From the NCBI GenBank assembly GCA_945901795.1, contig CAMDLP010000021.1, positions 1 to 48,120 of the forward strand: a stretch of 48,120 nt of DNA, written 5' to 3'. Of the stretch, positions 5,978 to 30,960 are shown in pieces (within the stretch, counting starts at the first letter, position 1; the number at the start of each line of letters is the position of its first letter). This stretch comes from Akkermansia muciniphila. Its GTDB lineage: Bacteria; Verrucomicrobiota; Verrucomicrobiia; Verrucomicrobiales; Akkermansiaceae. The notes beneath the pieces were generated by a model. The model was not told where the DNA came from. It saw nothing but the letters and a program-made list of their open reading frames with translations, and made no database searches. The translations under genes were made by a program, and so were the position numbers.

Positions 5978-6823
<846 letters not shown>

Positions 6824-6874
6824 CGGTGAATTGGCGGCTTGCGGCGTCCGCCTGAGGGCTCTACTTTGCGCCCC

Positions 6875-7405
6875 ATGAACCCGCTGGCAACTTGGAAAAT
6901 CCGCGCGATCGCCGCAGGGCTTTTCGTTTCACTTCCCTGCCACGCCAACGATGCCGCGGCAGTCGATGGGCCGAACGTCCGCTGCATGAAGCACGAGGAC
7001 GGCTCGCGCGCGGTGTTCACCCGCAGCCCCGACAGCCGGACCCTGACGAAAAAGACCTTCACAGCTAACGGGAAGCTCTGCATGGTGACCACTTACAAGA
7101 TGGATTCAAACGCCAACCCGCTCGGCTGCAAAATCCGCGACGGCCAGAACAACGAGATGTTCAAAGTCAGCTACGGCTACCACAAGGTGACCGGCCTGCT
7201 CGTCGAGGAGCTCATGTTCGACTCGCGAGTGCGGCGTCTCAATCCGGCTAACGGCAAGGAGCTGCCGGTGCAAAGGATCGTTTATCTCTACGATGCGGAA
7301 GGCAAACGCAGCGCGCCGATTGTTTTCAACCTACTGCCCGGAAAAACTTTCGAGCAGGTCTTCGGCGTCAAATCCTCCGCGCTGGAGTCGAATCCCTTCA
7401 AGTAA
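6875..7405 (+). CDS. Exported protein of unknown function
   Basis: 176 aa. I chose the ATG at 6875 over an in-frame one 36 nt upstream because it starts a clean signal peptide: MNPLATWK, a hydrophobic core IAAGLFVSLP, and a cleavage-like CHAND. The mature part is beta-rich with repeated short strands and two or three Cys. It contains YDAEGK, reminiscent of loose antitoxin-like or RHS-like beta repeats, but I do not recognise a family. The next gene begins 3 nt after its stop, so the two are likely co-transcribed and may act together at the cell envelope. Confidence 0.75.
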   Translation: MNPLATWKIRAIAAGLFVSLPCHANDAAAVDGPNVRCMKHEDGSRAVFTRSPDSRTLTKKTFTANGKLCMVTTYKMDSNANPLGCKIRDGQNNEMFKVSYGYHKVTGLLVEELMFDSRVRRLNPANGKELPVQRIVYLYDAEGKRSAPIVFNLLPGKTFEQVFGVKSSALESNPFK

Positions 7406-7408
7406 GCC

Positions 7409-8656
7409 GTGGCCAAGCCCCAGACCTTGCTTCCCTGGCTCCTCGGCGGAGTCATCGCCGTGGCTGGCATCCTCCAGGGCCTTCACTGGCGCTCGTCCGG
7501 AAACTCCGCGGATCTAGCAGAACTTGAGAACCAGCTGCGCATCACCGCCGAGGAAAACGAGATGCTCCGGCGCGAGAACGAGTCGCTCCGCTCGCTCGCG
7601 CAGGGCGGCGGCGAGCTCGCAGTGCCGCAGGAATTCATCGACCGCGCCGAGAAGGAGTTCGGCCTGCGCTTTCTATCAAGTCCCGTCGTCCACCGCCTCG
7701 CCGGCGAGGAGCTCCGCGGCCGGATCATGGCGGCCATCGAGAGCCGTTACGGCCCGTCCGGCATCGACGACCGCCAGGAGGCCTACCAACTCATCGGCTG
7801 GCTGCGTCCGGATGACGACCTGCTCTCCCAGCTCGCGGCCGTCCGCGCGGTCGGGGCTTTGGCGTGGTTCGACGACGTCACCGGCGAGGGCTGGGTGACT
7901 GACCGCTTCGATTTGAAAAACATTCCGGACCAGGCCGCGCTCGTCCGCCTGCTCGCCCGCGTCCTTCTCCACCAGCATTTTCCGCCCGCTCCGGCTTACC
8001 CCGGCGATGACGCGGCGCGCGCCCGTGAAGCGCTCCACCAAGGTGCCGCCGCCGGTTCCGAGGCGCGGTTCTACGCGATGAGCGCCCGCACTATCGGCTT
8101 CATGCCGATGAAAGAAAATACCGAGGCTGTGCAGCTTCTCGCCAGTCTTTCCCCGTTTCTCCAAGGCCTAACCACCTTTCCCGCTTCAGAGGGCAAGGGG
8201 CTTGCTGACACCCTGCACGTGCAAGGCAACGACAAGTTCCAAGCCGCGTTCCACAATCCGCCGCAGACGACCCGCGCGATTTTTTTCCCAGGTGAGCCCG
8301 CTGCCGAGCCGAAAGCTCTCGATCTGCCAGCCGTTCCCGAAGAACCTTTTCTAACGGAATCCGCTGGTCTGCTAGGCCTGCGCCTGTGGCTCGAACCGCT
8401 CGGCGCGGCTGAAATCGCGGCTTGTTGGAAAAACGATCGCTACGTCCTGTTTCCCGACGGCGAGGCCTCGTCCGCCGTGCTCTGGGACATCGAGTTGGAA
8501 AACGCCGGAGCCGCGGACAAGCTCCAGGCCATCGCCGCCGTCATCGCCGCCCGGCAGGAAAAGCGGCATGTAAAAGTGAGCCGGCCATCGCCGACCCGCG
8601 TCCGTTTCCTCAACACCTTCGAGGCCGCCACCGCCGCCAGCCTCGGGTCCAAATAG
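7409..8656 (+). CDS. Membrane-anchored coiled-coil protein of unknown function
   Basis: 415 aa from a GTG start 3 nt after the preceding stop. One N-terminal transmembrane helix (LPWLLGGVIAVAGIL, about residues 8-24) is followed by a short Glu/Arg-rich coiled coil (about 36-70) and a large soluble domain with several tryptophans and no motif I recognise. The topology suggests a periplasmic domain tethered to the inner membrane. Acylphosphatase follows after 4 nt, so three genes form one transcription unit. No catalytic signature was found; the function is unknown. Confidence 0.75.
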   Translation: MAKPQTLLPWLLGGVIAVAGILQGLHWRSSGNSADLAELENQLRITAEENEMLRRENESLRSLAQGGGELAVPQEFIDRAEKEFGLRFLSSPVVHRLAGEELRGRIMAAIESRYGPSGIDDRQEAYQLIGWLRPDDDLLSQLAAVRAVGALAWFDDVTGEGWVTDRFDLKNIPDQAALVRLLARVLLHQHFPPAPAYPGDDAARAREALHQGAAAGSEARFYAMSARTIGFMPMKENTEAVQLLASLSPFLQGLTTFPASEGKGLADTLHVQGNDKFQAAFHNPPQTTRAIFFPGEPAAEPKALDLPAVPEEPFLTESAGLLGLRLWLEPLGAAEIAACWKNDRYVLFPDGEASSAVLWDIELENAGAADKLQAIAAVIAARQEKRHVKVSRPSPTRVRFLNTFEAATAASLGSK

Positions 8657-25333: not shown

Positions 25334-25469
25334 TTCAAAAGTCGGCGCAGATTGAGCCTGCCGGGCGGTCGCGCCAAGACCTATGATCGGGATTTTGCGG
25401 GCGTAAATTCGCTGGTCAGCCGCCGGCGGAAATGGTTTGAAGCGCCTGCGAGCGATCCGCTTCGCGACG

Positions 25470-27368
25470 ATGACTGACACACACGGAGGCCACTCGGGCC
25501 ACAAACCTCACCTCGCGGTGACCACGATCGCAGCCTTGGGCATTGTTTTCGGTGATATCGGAACGAGCCCGCTCTATGCGTTCCGCGAATGTTTTTCGGG
25601 CCACCACGGCGCGCCGATCAGTCCGCAGAATCTGGTGGGCGCGGCTTCGTTGATCGTCTGGTCGCTGGTGATGGTGGTGACGGTGAAATATTTGCTCATC
25701 ATCCTGCGGCTCGACAACAAGGGCGAAGGCGGGGTACTGGCCTTGTCCACCTTGATCCGCGGCGCGCTCAAGAGTCTCGGCGGCAAGGATCCGAAAAAAA
25801 TCCTGATGTTCGGCCTGGCGGGGGCGTCGTTGATTTATGCCGACGGCATGCTGACTCCGGCGATTTCGGTGTTAAGCGCCGTGGAGGGGCTGGCGGTGAG
25901 CGCGCCGATGCTGTCGCACTGGGCGCTGCCGCTCGCGGTGACTTTGCTAACCGGGCTGTTCTACATCCAGAGATTCGGTACGGGCACGGTGGGAAAACTT
26001 TTCGGGCCGGTGATTCTGTTATGGTTCGTCACGCTCGCCGCGCTCGGAATCCGGATGCTGTGCGTGCATCCCGAAGTGCTGTGGTCGCTCAGCCCGTGGG
26101 AGGGCGGATCGTTTCTCGTCCGCGAGTGGCGGCATGCGTTTCCATTGTTAGCCGCCGTTTTCCTCGCGGTGACGGGTGGCGAATCGCTCTATGCGGACAT
26201 CGGTCACTTCGGCACCAAGCCCATCCGTGTCGCGTGGTTTGCGGTGGTGTTTCCCGCCTTGGCGCTGAATTACCTCGGCCAGGCGGCGCTGCTGACTGCG
26301 GATCCCTCCGCGATCCGCAGTCCGTTTTTCCTGCTGGCTCCACCGCTGCTGCAATTGCCGCTGACGATTCTCGCGACGGGCGCAGCGATCATCGCCAGCC
26401 AGGCGCTGATTTCCGGCGCGTTCTCCCTAACCGCACAAGCGGTGCAACTCGGCTGCATGCCGCGGACGCAGGTGTTATATACTTCGGAGCACTCCGTGGG
26501 GCAGGTCTACGTCCCTGCGGTGAACCACGTGCTCGCGGTCGCCTGCATCCTGCTGGTGGTGACCTTCAAGACGTCCAGCGCGCTGGCCGGGGCGTATGGG
26601 ATCGCGATTTCGGTGACGATGACGATCACCTCGTTGTTATTTTTCTCCGCAGCGCGGGCGGTCTGGGGCTGGTCCAAGGCCAAGGCGGCGGTGGTCACCA
26701 GTTTGTTCCTGACCTTTGAGGCGGCCTTTCTCGCGGCCAACACCTTGAAGATCTATCCGTCCGGCTGGCTCCCGCTGCTGATCGCCGCCGTGGTGATGAT
26801 GATCATGCTGATCTGGATCTGGGGCCGCCAGCGCTTGTATGCGCGCATCATGCGCGACTCGCTGCCGATCGACGATTTGCTCAAGGATCTGCACAAAGGC
26901 AAAATCCACCGGGTTTCCGGCACCGCGATTTACATGAGCGGCAAAGGCCTGCAAGTGCCTACCGCGCTGCTGCATAATTTGAAGCACAACCAGGTCCTGC
27001 ACGAGCGGGTGATTCTGCTGCACGTGATGACGCTCGACCAGCCGCGGGCGAATCCAGATGATATGCTGGATTACGAGGATCTGGGAGACGGCGTGCATCG
27101 CGCGACCCTGCGCTTCGGCTTCGCGGAAACTCCCGACGTGCCCACCGCGCTGAAACTCAGGATGCCGGAGAGCGCGCGTTTCCAGCCGGGCAAGGCGACT
27201 TATTTCCTCGGCCGCGAAACCTACGGCGTCGGGAAAAAAGCGACTTTCATCGACCGGCTCCGTCTCTCGCTTTTCGCGGCGATGGCCCGCAACGCCTCTC
27301 CCGCGACCGCTTATTTTCAACTGCCACCCGGCCGCGTCGTCGAGCTCGGCGGGCAAATCACTTTGTAA
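25470..27368 (+). CDS. kup: KUP-family potassium uptake transporter
   Basis: 632 aa, normal length. It has twelve hydrophobic helices in the first 430 residues and a hydrophilic C-terminal domain of about 170. Signatures are ALGIVFGDIGTSPLYAFREC at the first helix, LDNKGEGGVLALSTLIR after helix 2, ALTADPSAIRSPFF-like and GGESLYADIGHFG. It is a proton-coupled K+ importer in the inner membrane. The ATG at 25470 was preferred to one 33 nt upstream because it lies next to the conserved N-terminus. It is divergent from prmC across 136 bp. The next gene starts 12 nt after the stop behind GGAAAGGA. Confidence 0.95.
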   Translation: MTDTHGGHSGHKPHLAVTTIAALGIVFGDIGTSPLYAFRECFSGHHGAPISPQNLVGAASLIVWSLVMVVTVKYLLIILRLDNKGEGGVLALSTLIRGALKSLGGKDPKKILMFGLAGASLIYADGMLTPAISVLSAVEGLAVSAPMLSHWALPLAVTLLTGLFYIQRFGTGTVGKLFGPVILLWFVTLAALGIRMLCVHPEVLWSLSPWEGGSFLVREWRHAFPLLAAVFLAVTGGESLYADIGHFGTKPIRVAWFAVVFPALALNYLGQAALLTADPSAIRSPFFLLAPPLLQLPLTILATGAAIIASQALISGAFSLTAQAVQLGCMPRTQVLYTSEHSVGQVYVPAVNHVLAVACILLVVTFKTSSALAGAYGIAISVTMTITSLLFFSAARAVWGWSKAKAAVVTSLFLTFEAAFLAANTLKIYPSGWLPLLIAAVVMMIMLIWIWGRQRLYARIMRDSLPIDDLLKDLHKGKIHRVSGTAIYMSGKGLQVPTALLHNLKHNQVLHERVILLHVMTLDQPRANPDDMLDYEDLGDGVHRATLRFGFAETPDVPTALKLRMPESARFQPGKATYFLGRETYGVGKKATFIDRLRLSLFAAMARNASPATAYFQLPPGRVVELGGQITL

Positions 27369-27380
27369 ACGCGGAAAGGA

Positions 27381-28541
27381 ATGCCTGCATCACAACCCGT
27401 GGCCATCCCGTCCTCCCTCTCGATCACCGGCCTTGGCGCGCTCTCCGCTCTCGGCTCGGATGTTGCATCGCACCACCAGGCGCTGCTGGCGCGGCAGGTG
27501 CCATTCCGGAAACTCGGCGGGCTGCTCGGTGCCGACAGCCCGCACGCGGCGCGGCCCGGCGCGTGGATCGAGCGGCGCTCGTTGTTAGTGAACCGCAAGT
27601 GGAGCCCGGCGACGATGGCCGCGCTGCACGTCGCCCGCGAGGCGATCGCCGAAGCCGGCTGGAGCGCGGATGATTTGCGGGACGCGGCCTTGGTCGTCGG
27701 CACCAGCCGGGGAAACGCCGCGGGCTGGCTTGGTCCGTGGCCGGGACGCAGGCCGTTCAAGCTGATGGCCGCGAGCAACACCATCCACAGCGAACCGGCG
27801 TCGGCCATCACCATCGAGCTCGGCATCACCGGGCCTAACCACGTCCTCGCCAGCGGTTGCGCCGCGGGCCTCGACGCCATCGGCATCGCGATGATGTTGG
27901 TGCGCTCCGGCGCCGCGCCGCGGGCGCTGGCAGTGGCGGTGGACCTTCCGCTGGTGCCGATCCTGCTCGATAACTATGCCGCGTCCGGATTGTTATCTGC
28001 TGAAATGGATTTGAATCCCTATCATCCGGCGTCGTCGGGATTCATCCCCGCCGAGGGCGCGGCGGCGATGGTCATCGAGCATCGCGACGGCGGCTTTCCG
28101 CGCTTGGCTTACTATGGCTGCAATGCGGATGCGTGCGATCCGGTGGGCATTCCCGCCGATGGCGGACGCACGCCGGAGTTGATAGAAAAGGCGATCCGTC
28201 TTCACGGCAACCCGGCCGCCGTCTGCCCGCATGCCACGGGAACCGCCGTGCAAGCCGTGGCGGATCCCGCCACGCTGAACCGCTGTTTCCCGGACTCGCA
28301 GCCTAGCTTGCATTTGTTGAAGCCCTTCACCGGCCATACCATCGGCGCGAGCGGATTGTTGGAGAGCGTGATCCTCGCCCGTTTCGCCCGCGACCATCAA
28401 CTCCCGCCGAATCTCGCCGGTCGGCACGCTCCCGCCGGATTCCAGCTGCCCGACGAGGTGCTTGAAAACAGCGGGTCCATTTATAAACTTTCCCATGGAA
28501 TGGGCGGGCATAACGCCCTGCTTGTTCTGACACCGCCATGA
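27381..28541 (+). CDS. Beta-ketoacyl-ACP synthase family protein
   Basis: 386 aa thiolase-fold condensing enzyme. The Cys-His-His triad is intact: C160 in LASGCAAG, H284 in CPHATGTAVQ (usually HGTGT) and H319 in KPFTGHTIGASG. The divergent motifs and the length, slightly short of FabF (about 410), suggest a specialised synthase, as in aryl-polyene or other secondary lipid pathways, not the housekeeping FabF. No acyl carrier protein gene is nearby. The start has GGAAAGGA just upstream. The stop overlaps the next start by ATGA, so it is translationally coupled to the transpeptidase-phosphatase fusion. Confidence 0.85.
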   Translation: MPASQPVAIPSSLSITGLGALSALGSDVASHHQALLARQVPFRKLGGLLGADSPHAARPGAWIERRSLLVNRKWSPATMAALHVAREAIAEAGWSADDLRDAALVVGTSRGNAAGWLGPWPGRRPFKLMAASNTIHSEPASAITIELGITGPNHVLASGCAAGLDAIGIAMMLVRSGAAPRALAVAVDLPLVPILLDNYAASGLLSAEMDLNPYHPASSGFIPAEGAAAMVIEHRDGGFPRLAYYGCNADACDPVGIPADGGRTPELIEKAIRLHGNPAAVCPHATGTAVQAVADPATLNRCFPDSQPSLHLLKPFTGHTIGASGLLESVILARFARDHQLPPNLAGRHAPAGFQLPDEVLENSGSIYKLSHGMGGHNALLVLTPP

Positions 28542-29662
28542 GCCCGACACGTCGCCTTGAAGTTTCCATCGATGACCAGACACTGAAAGTCATCGAGGGC
28601 GATCAATGCATCCGCCGATTTGATATCTCCACCGCCACCAAGGGCATGGGTTTCACCATGAACAGTTATCGCACGCCGACCGGACGTTTCCGGGTGGCGG
28701 AAAAAATCGGCGACGGTGAAGCGAGCTGCACGATTTTCAAACAACGGGTGCCCGCGGGCATGTGGCAGCCCGGCGCCGCGGCCGAGGGCGATCTGGTTCT
28801 CAGCCGCATCCTGCGTCTCGAAGGCTTGGATGCTGAAAATTTAAACACCTTCGAGCGCTTCATCTATATCCACGGCACGAATCACGAGGACAAGCTCGGC
28901 CAGCCCGCCAGCCAAGGCTGCATCCGTCTTCGCAACGAGGAAGTGATCGAGTTATTCGACATGGTGAGCGAGGGAATCGAGTTGGAAATTCAGACCGCCA
29001 CCAAGCGCGGCGTGAAGTTGTTTTTCATCGATTGTGATTCCACGCTGTCGACGATTGAGGGAATCGACGAGCTGGCGCGCGGCAAGGGCGGTGATGTTTT
29101 CGAGCGCGTTGTGGAGCTGACCAATGCGGCGATGAACGGCGAGATTCCGATTGGCGAAGTGTTCCCGCGGAGGATGGAGATGATCCGTCCGGACCGCGAG
29201 CTATGTGATGCGGTCGCCGCGCTCTATGTGGAAACGATCGTGCCGGGAGCCGAGGAAATGATCCGCGAACTGAAGGAAGCCGGGTGGTTGCCGGTCATCT
29301 TGTCGGGTGGATTCGCGCCATTGATCCAGCCGCTTGCGGAGCGTCTGGGCATCGCCCACGTGGAAGCCGTGCCGCTCTATTTCCATGAGGATGGTTCTTA
29401 TAAAGGCTATGGTGAGGATTATCCCACCACGCGGAACCTCGGGAAAAACGAAGTGATCCGCGAGTGGAAACAGGCTCTGCTGCCGGAGCGCGTGGTGATG
29501 ATGGGCGACGGGATGTCCGATCTGGAGACCAAGCCGGACGTCGATGACTTCATTGGTTTCGGTGGTGTGGTGGCCCGTCCGAAGATAGAGAAAGGAAGCG
29601 ACCATTGGCTTGCTGACATGGCCGACAGGTCGGTTTTGAAGGGTATTATCGAGATTGGTTAG
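28538..29662 (+). CDS. Fusion of L,D-transpeptidase (YkuD) and SerB-like HAD phosphatase
   Basis: 374 aa. Residues about 7-153 form a YkuD catalytic domain with FIYIHGTNHED (H112) and SQGCIRLRN (C128), the catalytic pair of L,D-transpeptidases. After only about ten residues a phosphoserine-phosphatase-like HAD domain begins with FFIDCDSTL (D165, D167). It continues with SGGFAPLI (motif II), the Lys in LGKNEV (motif III) and MMGDGMSDLE (motif IV). All key residues of both enzymes are present. The YkuD part has no signal peptide, which is odd since its usual substrate, peptidoglycan, is periplasmic. It may be cytoplasmic, or the fold may serve another reaction. The gene is coupled to the ketoacyl synthase gene. 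Confidence 0.9.
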   Translation: MSPTRRLEVSIDDQTLKVIEGDQCIRRFDISTATKGMGFTMNSYRTPTGRFRVAEKIGDGEASCTIFKQRVPAGMWQPGAAAEGDLVLSRILRLEGLDAENLNTFERFIYIHGTNHEDKLGQPASQGCIRLRNEEVIELFDMVSEGIELEIQTATKRGVKLFFIDCDSTLSTIEGIDELARGKGGDVFERVVELTNAAMNGEIPIGEVFPRRMEMIRPDRELCDAVAALYVETIVPGAEEMIRELKEAGWLPVILSGGFAPLIQPLAERLGIAHVEAVPLYFHEDGSYKGYGEDYPTTRNLGKNEVIREWKQALLPERVVMMGDGMSDLETKPDVDDFIGFGGVVARPKIEKGSDHWLADMADRSVLKGIIEIG

Positions 29663-29712: not shown

Positions 29713-29741
29713 TTGCTTGCTAGCTCGTTGCTGATTTATAG
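29713..29741 (+). promoter_or_regulatory. Candidate sigma70-type promoter of the H1-like gene
   Basis: TTGCTT (29713-29718), 17 bp, TTATAG (29736-29741). Transcription would start about 6-8 nt before the ATG at 29754, giving a nearly leaderless mRNA with no Shine-Dalgarno site. The spacing is optimal and both hexamers match the consensus at four positions. Confidence 0.45.
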
Positions 29742-29753
29742 GTTGCTCCTGAC

Positions 29754-30401
29754 ATGAGCACTACTCCTAAGAAAAATTCGGCACGACGTATCCGTTATAC
29801 AGATGCACAGAAGAAAGAAATCGTGGACTTCGTCGCGAGCTACAATGCCGCGAACGGCCGTGGCGGCCAGAGCGAGGCCGCCAAGAAATTCAAGGTTTCC
29901 CCAATCTCGGTTGGCGCCTGGATGAAAGGCACCGGCGCTGCTGCTCCTCAAAAGGCCGCCAAAGCTCCGAAGGCTCCGAAGGCCGCCAAAAAGGCCAAGG
30001 CTCCCAAGGCCGCTAAAGCTCCGAAGGGCAAGCGCAAGGGCAATACCCGCAGCCGCTACACCGCCGAACAGAAGAAGGAGGTCGTTGACTTCACGGTTGC
30101 CTACAATGCCACGAACGGCCGCGGAGGCCAAAGCGCAGCAGCCGCGAAGTTCCAGGTTTCCCCAATCACGGTGATGGCTTGGCTGAAGGCAGCCGGCGTC
30201 AAAGCTTCTCCTAAGAAGGGCAAGAAAGCCGCGAAGGCACCGAAGGCACCGAAGGCACCGAAGGCAGCCAAGGTTTCCTCATCCGACGGCTTCGATGCCA
30301 AGCTCGGCGCGCTTCTCGCGCTGAGCAAGGAAATCGCTAAGTCCGAAACCGCGCTTGCCCAACTCAAGGGCAAGTTCAGCTCGCTCAAGGCGTCTCTCTA
30401 A
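29754..30401 (+). CDS. Histone-H1-like DNA-binding protein with two transposase-type HTH domains
   Basis: 215 aa, strongly basic. Two copies of a helix-turn-helix module of the kind found at the N-terminus of transposases lie at about 12-58 and 99-146. Both keep RYT-x-x-QKKE, ANGRGGQS or TNGRGGQS, and a VSPI recognition turn ending in AWMK or AWLK. They are joined and followed by Lys/Ala/Pro linkers (about 65-95 and 150-175) of KAPKA repeats like histone H1 tails. A predicted coiled coil (about 180-213) could allow dimerisation. No transposase catalytic domain follows. It probably acts as a nucleoid-associated protein that bridges or compacts DNA; this is inference. It has its own promoter and a strong terminator, as expected for an abundant protein. 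Confidence 0.85.
   Translation: MSTTPKKNSARRIRYTDAQKKEIVDFVASYNAANGRGGQSEAAKKFKVSPISVGAWMKGTGAAAPQKAAKAPKAPKAAKKAKAPKAAKAPKGKRKGNTRSRYTAEQKKEVVDFTVAYNATNGRGGQSAAAAKFQVSPITVMAWLKAAGVKASPKKGKKAAKAPKAPKAPKAAKVSSSDGFDAKLGALLALSKEIAKSETALAQLKGKFSSLKASL
30232..30267 (+). repeat. Four tandem 9-bp repeats within the H1-like gene
   Basis: CGAAGGCAC is repeated three times exactly, plus a fourth copy with a last-base change. Each unit adds three residues to the KAP-type linker without shifting the frame, so slippage would change linker length. Confidence 0.85.
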
Positions 30402-30425
30402 TCGAAATTAATTCGTCATTTCACA

Positions 30426-30458
30426 GGCCGTCTCCCTGCAAAGGGAGGCGGCCTTTTT
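30426..30458 (+). terminator. Rho-independent terminator of the H1-like gene
   Basis: A 12-bp stem, GGCCGTCTCCCT with AGGGAGGCGGCC (one G-T pair), a short loop, and six T directly after. It lies 24 nt beyond the stop and just before the end of the convergent Nudix gene. Confidence 0.9.
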
Positions 30459-30462
30459 TGTT

Positions 30463-30956
30463 TCACCACAAGACGTCGGTGGTCACCTCGCTCCAGCGCA
30501 GGCGATCTCCCTCGAACACGAAGCGCCCGAGGAAGGATTGTTCCTTGAGCAGCAACGGCAGCCAGTGCTGGTCGTCCTCCCACATCCGCTGATAGGGAAT
30601 CGCATCGAGCGCGGTCCACAGTGGCACGGCCTCGTCGGTCTCGGTGGGAGTGCCGCTGAAGTCGTCCGAGCGATAGACATGGCAGAGGATGTGCGGGCAG
30701 TCCGACATCGAGAACCGCAGCTCTCCCAGTTTTCTCGGCGCGTGAGGAGTCACGTGGAGTTCTTCCTGCGTCTCGCGGATGACGGCTTGCAGCGGCGTTT
30801 CGCCGGGATCGATTTTTCCTCCGGGGCCGTTGATTTTGCCGGCACCGAGCCCGCGCTTTTTCTCGATGAGAAGGATTTGCCCGTCCCTGATGATGAACAT
30901 GATGGTGGCGTGCATTCCGCCTTCCCACGTCGTCCAGTCGATGGGCGATTCGATCA

Positions 30957-30960
<4 letters not shown>
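30463..30960 (-). CDS. Nudix hydrolase, MTH1/MutT-like
   Basis: 165 aa from the ATG at 30960, which overlaps the gcvP stop by ATGA; a second ATG follows immediately. The Nudix box is complete: G48-x5-E54-x7-R62-E63-x2-E66-E67-L. The preceding KINGPGGK is characteristic of MTH1-type 8-oxo-dGTP or 2-OH-dATP pyrophosphatases, and WEDDQHW near residue 126 matches the purine-binding WxDD of that group. It probably cleans oxidised nucleotides. Coupling to gcvP has no obvious metabolic logic. Confidence 0.9.

Follow-up and report, generated by a model that had tools for sequence, protein, structure and literature searches.

A gene at 29754–30401 on the plus strand of the window (the whole 48,120-nucleotide stretch analysed here) encodes a 215-amino-acid protein in which two helix-turn-helix (HTH) domains are joined by H1-like lysine/alanine/proline linkers and followed by a C-terminal coiled coil. 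Judged from its sequence and its relatives, it appears to be an old, vertically inherited DNA-binding protein whose HTH was doubled inside the window's genus. From the sequence and the predicted structure we infer a nucleoid-associated-type protein that bridges DNA, a role for which we consider the chances to be evenly balanced.

Architecture of the two-HTH protein

The open reading frame (ORF) has exact coordinates, with an ATG at 29754 and a stop codon at 30399–30401, and the gene assignment draws on the ORF list, Pfam and relatives. The protein is strongly basic (pI 10.6, net charge +37) and lacks cysteine and histidine. On the plus strand, HTH domain 1 (residues 14–62; 29793–29939; model helices 17–34, 38–46 and 50–59) is followed by linker 1 (residues 63–98; 29940–30047; net charge +13), HTH domain 2 (residues 101–149; 30054–30200; model helices 104–121, 125–133 and 137–146), linker 2 (residues 151–179; 30204–30290; net charge +8) and a C-terminal coiled-coil helix (residues 180–215; 30291–30398; model helix 180–214 with a heptad period). 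Both linkers are lysine/alanine/proline tracts that are predicted to be disordered, with low confidence in the model. The two HTH domains are identical at 33 of 49 positions, and their alignment has a BLOSUM62 score of 176, whereas 2,000 shuffles gave scores that averaged 22 and never exceeded 50. This score rules out unrelated HTHs, and by this alignment the two domains are homologous. Homology of the copies had been set as a test by an earlier reading made from the letters alone (the sequence-only reading), which had also called them near-identical; the homology held, whereas at this level of identity the copies are better described as similar. Across 14 HTHs compared, the residues R-Y, K, GRGG, A and W were invariant.

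We modelled the protein with AlphaFold using an alignment of 26 sequences (the alignments behind the structure models covered 26 of the 29 two-HTH proteins and 28 of the 52 one-HTH proteins). Its mean pLDDT was 71.9 and its pTM 0.30; the model therefore does not predict how the parts are positioned relative to one another. Each HTH was modelled as three helices, with ten-residue blocks at pLDDT 80–92, and pLDDT fell below 50 at residues 66–98 and 153–177. Strong hydrophobic residues recurred in the last 35 residues with a period of 3.45–3.5, a heptad pattern measured in 35 of the 81 proteins collected, which had been chosen for their KASL-like end; this period points to a coiled coil. Pfam and NCBIfam searches found neither a catalytic domain nor a full-length match to a known nucleoid-associated protein family, and a search of PDB sequences returned only a weak match to a ribosomal protein (E 0.19). 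Basic linkers, a coiled-coil end and the lack of a catalytic domain had all been proposed by the sequence-only reading and agree with these results, as does its remark that no protein of this architecture was known to it: Pfam, NCBIfam and PDB sequences contained no full-length characterized match.

A conserved gene with its own signals

The reading frame was kept in 29 distinct two-HTH proteins, the window's included. Whole-gene dN/dS was 0.12–0.27 in all eight pairs of relatives, and HTH dN/dS was 0 to 0.29 in 13 of 14 comparisons from eight pairs, the other having a saturated dS. Linker 1 had a dN/dS of 0.74 in one pair (L004/L007) and the coil a value of 0.89 in another (L035/L036), where dS was very small. 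Judged by these ratios, the close relatives are under purifying selection.

A putative promoter on the plus strand (29716–29744) consists of CTTG at 29716–29719, 38 nucleotides 5′ of the ATG, and TAGGTT at 29739–29744. CTTG lay at −36 to −41 from the ATG in 29 of 29 two-HTH genes, which are kin to one another and therefore not 29 independent cases, and none of the 29 had a Shine–Dalgarno core in the last 22 nucleotides. The codon and promoter controls were 35 window ORFs chosen manually from the ORF list as candidate genes; at least one of them (25589–26719) overlaps a longer ORF in another frame (25437–27368) and is probably spurious. Within this set CTTG occurred at that distance only in the two-HTH gene (about 3% by chance), and eight ORFs had a Shine–Dalgarno core. 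Among the one-HTH genes, CTTG was found in 31 of 51 over a wider span (−36 to −48) and a Shine–Dalgarno core in nine of 51. The upstream pattern TTG-N15-20-TAnnTT was present in 19 of 29 two-HTH genes compared with 1.0% in shuffles, and in seven of 51 one-HTH genes compared with 0.6%. Because TAGGTT ends 9 nucleotides before the ATG, the mRNA would start within a few nucleotides of it, and the message of the two-HTH gene is probably leaderless or nearly so. In Akkermansia muciniphila, leaderless starts are reported to make up 10% of transcription start sites (PMC4782308).

Downstream of the gene, a GC-rich hairpin (30425–30454) followed by a T run forms an intrinsic terminator (30425–30460, plus strand). 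The segment 30402–30470 folded at −28.7 kcal/mol (z −5.8), with none of 200 shuffles as low, and a hairpin with a T run was seen by eye in the 20 downstream stretches inspected. A chance frame is ruled out by the conserved frame, the dN/dS values, the promoter-like element and the terminator; the ORF has the features expected of a genuine gene that is transcribed as a separate unit. Its codon adaptation of 0.622 ranked 10th among the 35 window ORFs and fell within the 0.597–0.779 range of a ribosomal-operon reference. That reference consisted of 20 ORFs from a single 18-kb stretch containing 22, the other two having been removed manually, and was scored against itself. Such a value is unexceptional; it allows abundance and is no proof of it.

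Distribution of the family

The window's own genome has a single locus of the two-HTH gene. Matches were present in 32 of 36 same-genus genomes and absent from the other four, and the loci from 28 of the 33 genomes with the gene (own included) comprised 20 two-HTH genes, seven one-HTH genes and one cut by a contig end (L013). An HTH profile searched across the order matched 75 of 189 genomes, all within two families. If the non-matching genomes listed are ordered by kinship, as they appear to be, the window's family had matches in 42 of its 57 genomes (own included) and an Akkermansia-like genus in 14 of 26; 33 matching genomes belonged to the second family of the order. Across the phylum, 22 of 288 genomes matched, every one in the window's family. 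Most matching genomes had one match and some had up to five. On these searches the family is lineage-restricted, and the window protein has no family model of its own in the libraries searched (Pfam and NCBIfam). The portions of open-licence PubMed Central literature consulted on H1-like, domesticated-transposase or nucleoid proteins in Akkermansiaceae-type bacteria contained no description of it. The genes next to two paralogues in one genome (L118 and L119 of G100) encode an HD-CE/HATPase protein, and a DEAD helicase together with an OLD-like ATPase, which may make this a defence neighbourhood.

The 81 proteins collected comprised 29 two-HTH and 52 one-HTH sequences, the latter including one cut at a contig end (L041); because a rule was used to assign start codons, the starts of some one-HTH proteins may be misplaced. 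The relatives whose loci were read outside the window's genus have one HTH, are mostly 100–130 amino acids long and have a shorter linker and a coil. Linker 1 ranged from 19 to 87 residues among the 29 two-HTH proteins, whose net charge was +10 to +49, compared with +5 to +29 (median +13) for the 52 one-HTH proteins. Long lysine/alanine/proline or lysine/alanine/valine tracts join the domains in nearly all two-HTH proteins, an exception being L059, whose linker is short and less basic and whose net charge is only +10. By eye, most one-HTH relatives were without long tracts and several had shorter lysine/alanine-rich linkers. A core of the AT-hook-like pattern (RGRK, RGRP, GRPR or GRPK) was present in 18 of 52 one-HTH proteins versus two of 29 two-HTH proteins.

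HTH duplication in a shared chromosomal slot

We found that one-HTH and two-HTH genes share a chromosomal slot, the common order being ketosynthase, YkuD/HAD, the gene, NUDIX and gcvP. In the window, the conserved upstream neighbour (28538–29662, plus strand) encodes a YkuD L,D-transpeptidase domain (residues 5–146) fused to a HAD phosphatase domain (residues 163–330), and the conserved downstream neighbour (30463–30960, minus strand) a NUDIX hydrolase, as identified by Pfam and the loci of relatives. A ketosynthase or YkuD/HAD gene adjoins the HTH gene in 31 of 47 loci (21 two-HTH, including the contig-end-cut L041, and 10 one-HTH), and NUDIX and gcvP are present too in 22 (16 two-HTH and six one-HTH); some of the 47 loci represent one species through two collections. 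Of the 16 loci without slot neighbours, two were longer ORFs and the others Akkermansia-like, second-family, other-genus, paralogous or contig-end loci. At one locus (L101 of genome G138, 6496–8118), the upstream YkuD/HAD gene runs on into the one-HTH gene in the same frame without an intervening stop codon, giving one open frame of 541 amino acids.

Because the slot is common to both forms, the two-HTH gene is most simply a one-HTH gene duplicated in place. The ancestral form was likely one HTH plus a coil in the same slot, and the two-HTH protein appears to have derived from this one-HTH-plus-coil family. We built a tree from the two upstream neighbours, with 41 rows and a midpoint root. Eight rows in two clades outside the window's genus were all one-HTH, and all 26 two-HTH rows fell inside the window's genus, where seven one-HTH rows were also placed; four loci (L012, L017, L020 and L021) had no neighbour sequence and were left out. 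The best tree had two changes between the one-HTH and two-HTH states, one-change trees made up 10% of 200 bootstrap trees, and a constraint to a single two-HTH clade was not rejected (p-AU 0.507). A shorter neighbour tree had three changes, one of which came from the contig-end-cut two-HTH locus L041 being labelled 'one'. A tree of the 50-amino-acid HTHs themselves was poorly resolved.

Resemblance to transposase DNA-binding domains

The sequence-only reading had described the HTHs as transposase-type and the protein as domesticated from a transposase. In sequence, the window protein passed two Pfam models, BrkDBD (30.3 bits against a cut-off of 23.4) and HTH_28 (26.3 against 25), neither of which is a transposase model; none of five one-HTH relatives tested reached either cut-off. 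The transposase model HTH_Tnp_1 scored 22.5 bits, below its cut-off of 24.1, and the NCBIfam IS481 model scored 22.8 against a cut-off of 224, with IS21 and IS3 models likewise far below. HTH_Tnp_1 spanned the HTH and coil in two of the five one-HTH relatives, again below cut-off, and over the window's own genome it returned nothing above cut-off, the two-HTH gene included. Sequence profiles searched against the PDB, a check that the sequence-only reading had proposed, returned no transposase: the best E value for the HTH profile was 0.35, and the one-HTH profile matched mostly coiled coils (best E 0.031), with Brinker at E 0.23.

In structure, the top match of both the one-HTH and the window-protein models was TnpE of Shigella (PDB 2rn7), which we take to be of the IS3-family OrfA kind. 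VIA-align gave Z 7.0 for the one-HTH model (60 residues aligned, rmsd 4.4) and Z 6.8 for the window protein (55 aligned, rmsd 2.9), values in a range that may reflect merely a common arrangement. Foldseek also placed 2rn7 first for the one-HTH model at E 0.022, with no PDB match at E ≤ 0.001. CENP-B (Z 5.8; 99 aligned, rmsd 12.0), Brinker (Z 5.7; 49 aligned, rmsd 2.5) and Tc3 (Z 5.2; 47 aligned, rmsd 3.0) domains followed TnpE, mixed with unrelated HTH and Myb-like proteins. Because the PDB profiles found no transposase and Foldseek no match at E ≤ 0.001, the link to transposases depends on the similarity of fold and on Pfam and NCBIfam scores that stay below their cut-offs. We therefore regard the HTH, in a broad sense, as transposase-like at the level of the modelled fold; the description as transposase-type is fair for the fold and weak for the sequence.

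We found no insertion sequence with the same HTH among the relatives' loci. Three of the order matches listed lay in open frames longer than 241 amino acids (541, 594 and 266 amino acids), none transposase-like: the 541-amino-acid frame is the one-HTH gene joined to YkuD/HAD, and the 594-amino-acid frame reads as ParB-like. No OrfB-like frame was seen beside 13 non-syntenic loci (by eye, with six proteins at four loci checked by Pfam), the one-HTH form had no match in 50,697 phage records, and the window protein had none in 72,556 plasmid records. Among viral contigs there was one match (L136, 2920–4590), an HTH with a lysine-rich tail at the N terminus of a 557-amino-acid frame that by eye resembles a RecA-type ATPase. 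An active or recent insertion sequence is ruled out by the single locus, the fixed slot, the phage (one-HTH form) and plasmid (window protein) negatives and the lack of an OrfB-like neighbour at the 13 non-syntenic loci. Domestication of a transposase HTH is unproven: transposase models fell below cut-off, an insertion sequence carrying this HTH was not found and the relatives occupy a fixed slot, so the word 'domesticated' is not borne out.

Proposed role in DNA bridging and alternative explanations

The HTH fold is an established DNA-binding fold, and each HTH of the window protein would be expected to bind DNA. The lysine/alanine/proline tethers may add sequence-independent, charge-driven binding and reach, by analogy with the KPAA repeats of AlgP, and the coil may dimerize the protein, by analogy with the zipper reported for IS911 OrfA/OrfAB (PMC2909936). 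A dimer would carry four HTHs on flexible arms, so bridging or bundling of DNA segments would be possible. The doubled HTH and longer charged tethers may raise avidity and reach, moving a regulator-sized protein towards a more chromatin-like one. Constrained HTHs combined with a linker 1 of variable length are what would be expected of tethers. Support for a bridging role comes from the predicted architecture, the charge and the single locus with its own promoter-like element and terminator. In all three Akkermansia-like loci examined (L105, L106 and L107), the one-HTH relative directly precedes a gyrase/topoisomerase IV A-subunit gene that is read in the same direction (identified by Pfam for L105 and L107), a mild hint at chromosome topology. 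Counting against bridging, the window's own genome has three HU/IHF-family genes, one of which was scored and had a codon adaptation of 0.709 versus 0.622 for the two-HTH gene. The gene is also missing from many relatives, L059 combines a short linker with a low charge, AT-hook-like cores are rarer in the two-HTH form and the HTH conservation would suit a sequence-specific regulator equally well.

Such a regulator is the main rival to bridging, and we consider it unlikely but worth taking seriously. Its HTHs would read a direct or inverted repeat, its coil would dimerize and its linkers would let two half-sites be spanned, perhaps in autoregulation, with no global DNA packing. The invariant HTH residues and low dN/dS, the conserved element at the gene's own promoter, the single match in most matching genomes and the many regulators among the structural neighbours (FapR, LuxR and Brinker) are all consistent with it. 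However, a linker 1 that varies between 19 and 87 residues is ill-suited to fixed half-site spacing, and local regulators seldom contain long polycationic tracts of the H1 type. Neighbouring genes vary by lineage, which argues against a fixed target operon.

The remaining explanations are less probable. It is improbable that the protein tethers storage granules or polyphosphate in the manner reported for AlgP and PhaF, its tracts touching DNA or polyphosphate while another part holds the granule on the nucleoid. The H1-like composition is shared with AlgP (PMC9239181), but Pfam found no phasin-like domain, the tracts connect two DNA-binding domains rather than forming one tail, and most one-HTH relatives have no long tracts. 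We think it still more improbable that the protein regulates transposition or is left over from an insertion sequence, as a relative of IS3 OrfA without its OrfB would be. Although the one-HTH relatives approximate OrfA in length and HTH-plus-coil layout and TnpE is the best structural match, the gene occupies the same slot across several genera under purifying selection with a single locus in its own genome, and it has neither an OrfB-like neighbour (at the 13 non-syntenic loci) nor a phage or plasmid match. An RNA- or ribosome-associated basic protein with structural HTHs seems the most improbable of all. It would account for the basic low-complexity tracts, and the weak PDB match, to eukaryotic L35A, covers residues 68–108, mostly linker; the two intact, conserved HTH domains speak against it.

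The proposed bridging role could be taken a step further, to a bacterial H1-like chromatin protein in which an OrfA-like HTH-plus-coil protein, acquired long ago from a transposase ancestor and since fixed in the chromosome, was made a multivalent DNA bridger within one genus by in-place HTH duplication and growth of the lysine/alanine/proline tethers; this fuller account we regard as doubtful. If DNA packing proves true, the one-HTH and two-HTH forms with variable tethers at the same locus would represent a chromatin-protein innovation in progress, and natural orthologues would allow the effects of valency and tether length on DNA bridging to be measured. The value lies in this natural one-HTH/two-HTH series at one locus: on the fuller account, it would allow a direct test of how a regulator became a chromatin protein. 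The results also point to an unannotated DNA-binding family in Akkermansiaceae-type bacteria.

Comparison with known systems

Like the one-HTH relatives, IS3 OrfA proteins combine an HTH and a helical zipper in about 100 amino acids without a catalytic domain; IS911 OrfA is reported to be a transposition regulator of 100 amino acids (PMC2909936). The window protein differs in having two HTHs, 215 amino acids, H1-like linkers and a fixed chromosomal slot, in lacking an OrfB/DDE partner downstream, where NUDIX and gcvP lie on the other strand, and in falling under the HTH_Tnp_1 cut-off (22.5 versus 24.1 bits). AlgP and PhaF share with it, by composition alone, a lysine/alanine/proline low-complexity tract that is predicted to be disordered, and KPAA-repeat peptides of AlgP are reported to bind DNA (PMC9239181). 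Their tract is a single C-terminal tail, whereas the window protein has its tracts inside the chain, one separating the HTHs and the other preceding the coil. The archaeal proteins Cbp1 and Cbp2 are likewise small proteins of three or two HTHs; the Cbp1 HTHs are reported to have arisen by domain duplication, and Cbp1 to take part in chromatin-like structures (PMC10883916). This likeness is one of architecture, and Cbp1 and Cbp2 differ in being archaeal, in their short linkers and in binding CRISPR repeats with Cren7.

HTHs of the Brinker, CENP-B and Tc3 type resemble those of the window protein through the BrkDBD model that it passes (30.3 versus 23.4 bits) and through the structural matches given above, whose Z range may mean no more than a shared arrangement; these are eukaryotic proteins of other architecture. 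Bridging nucleoid-associated proteins of the H-NS type consist of a DNA-binding part, a linker and an oligomerizing coil, with an AT-hook-like DNA-binding domain. By this description, the window protein would share the three-part plan, with an HTH as its DNA-binding part and the order of domains reversed. Set beside these systems, what is new here would be a small HTH-plus-coil DNA-binding type with H1-like linkers, the HTH-plus-coil plan itself being known.
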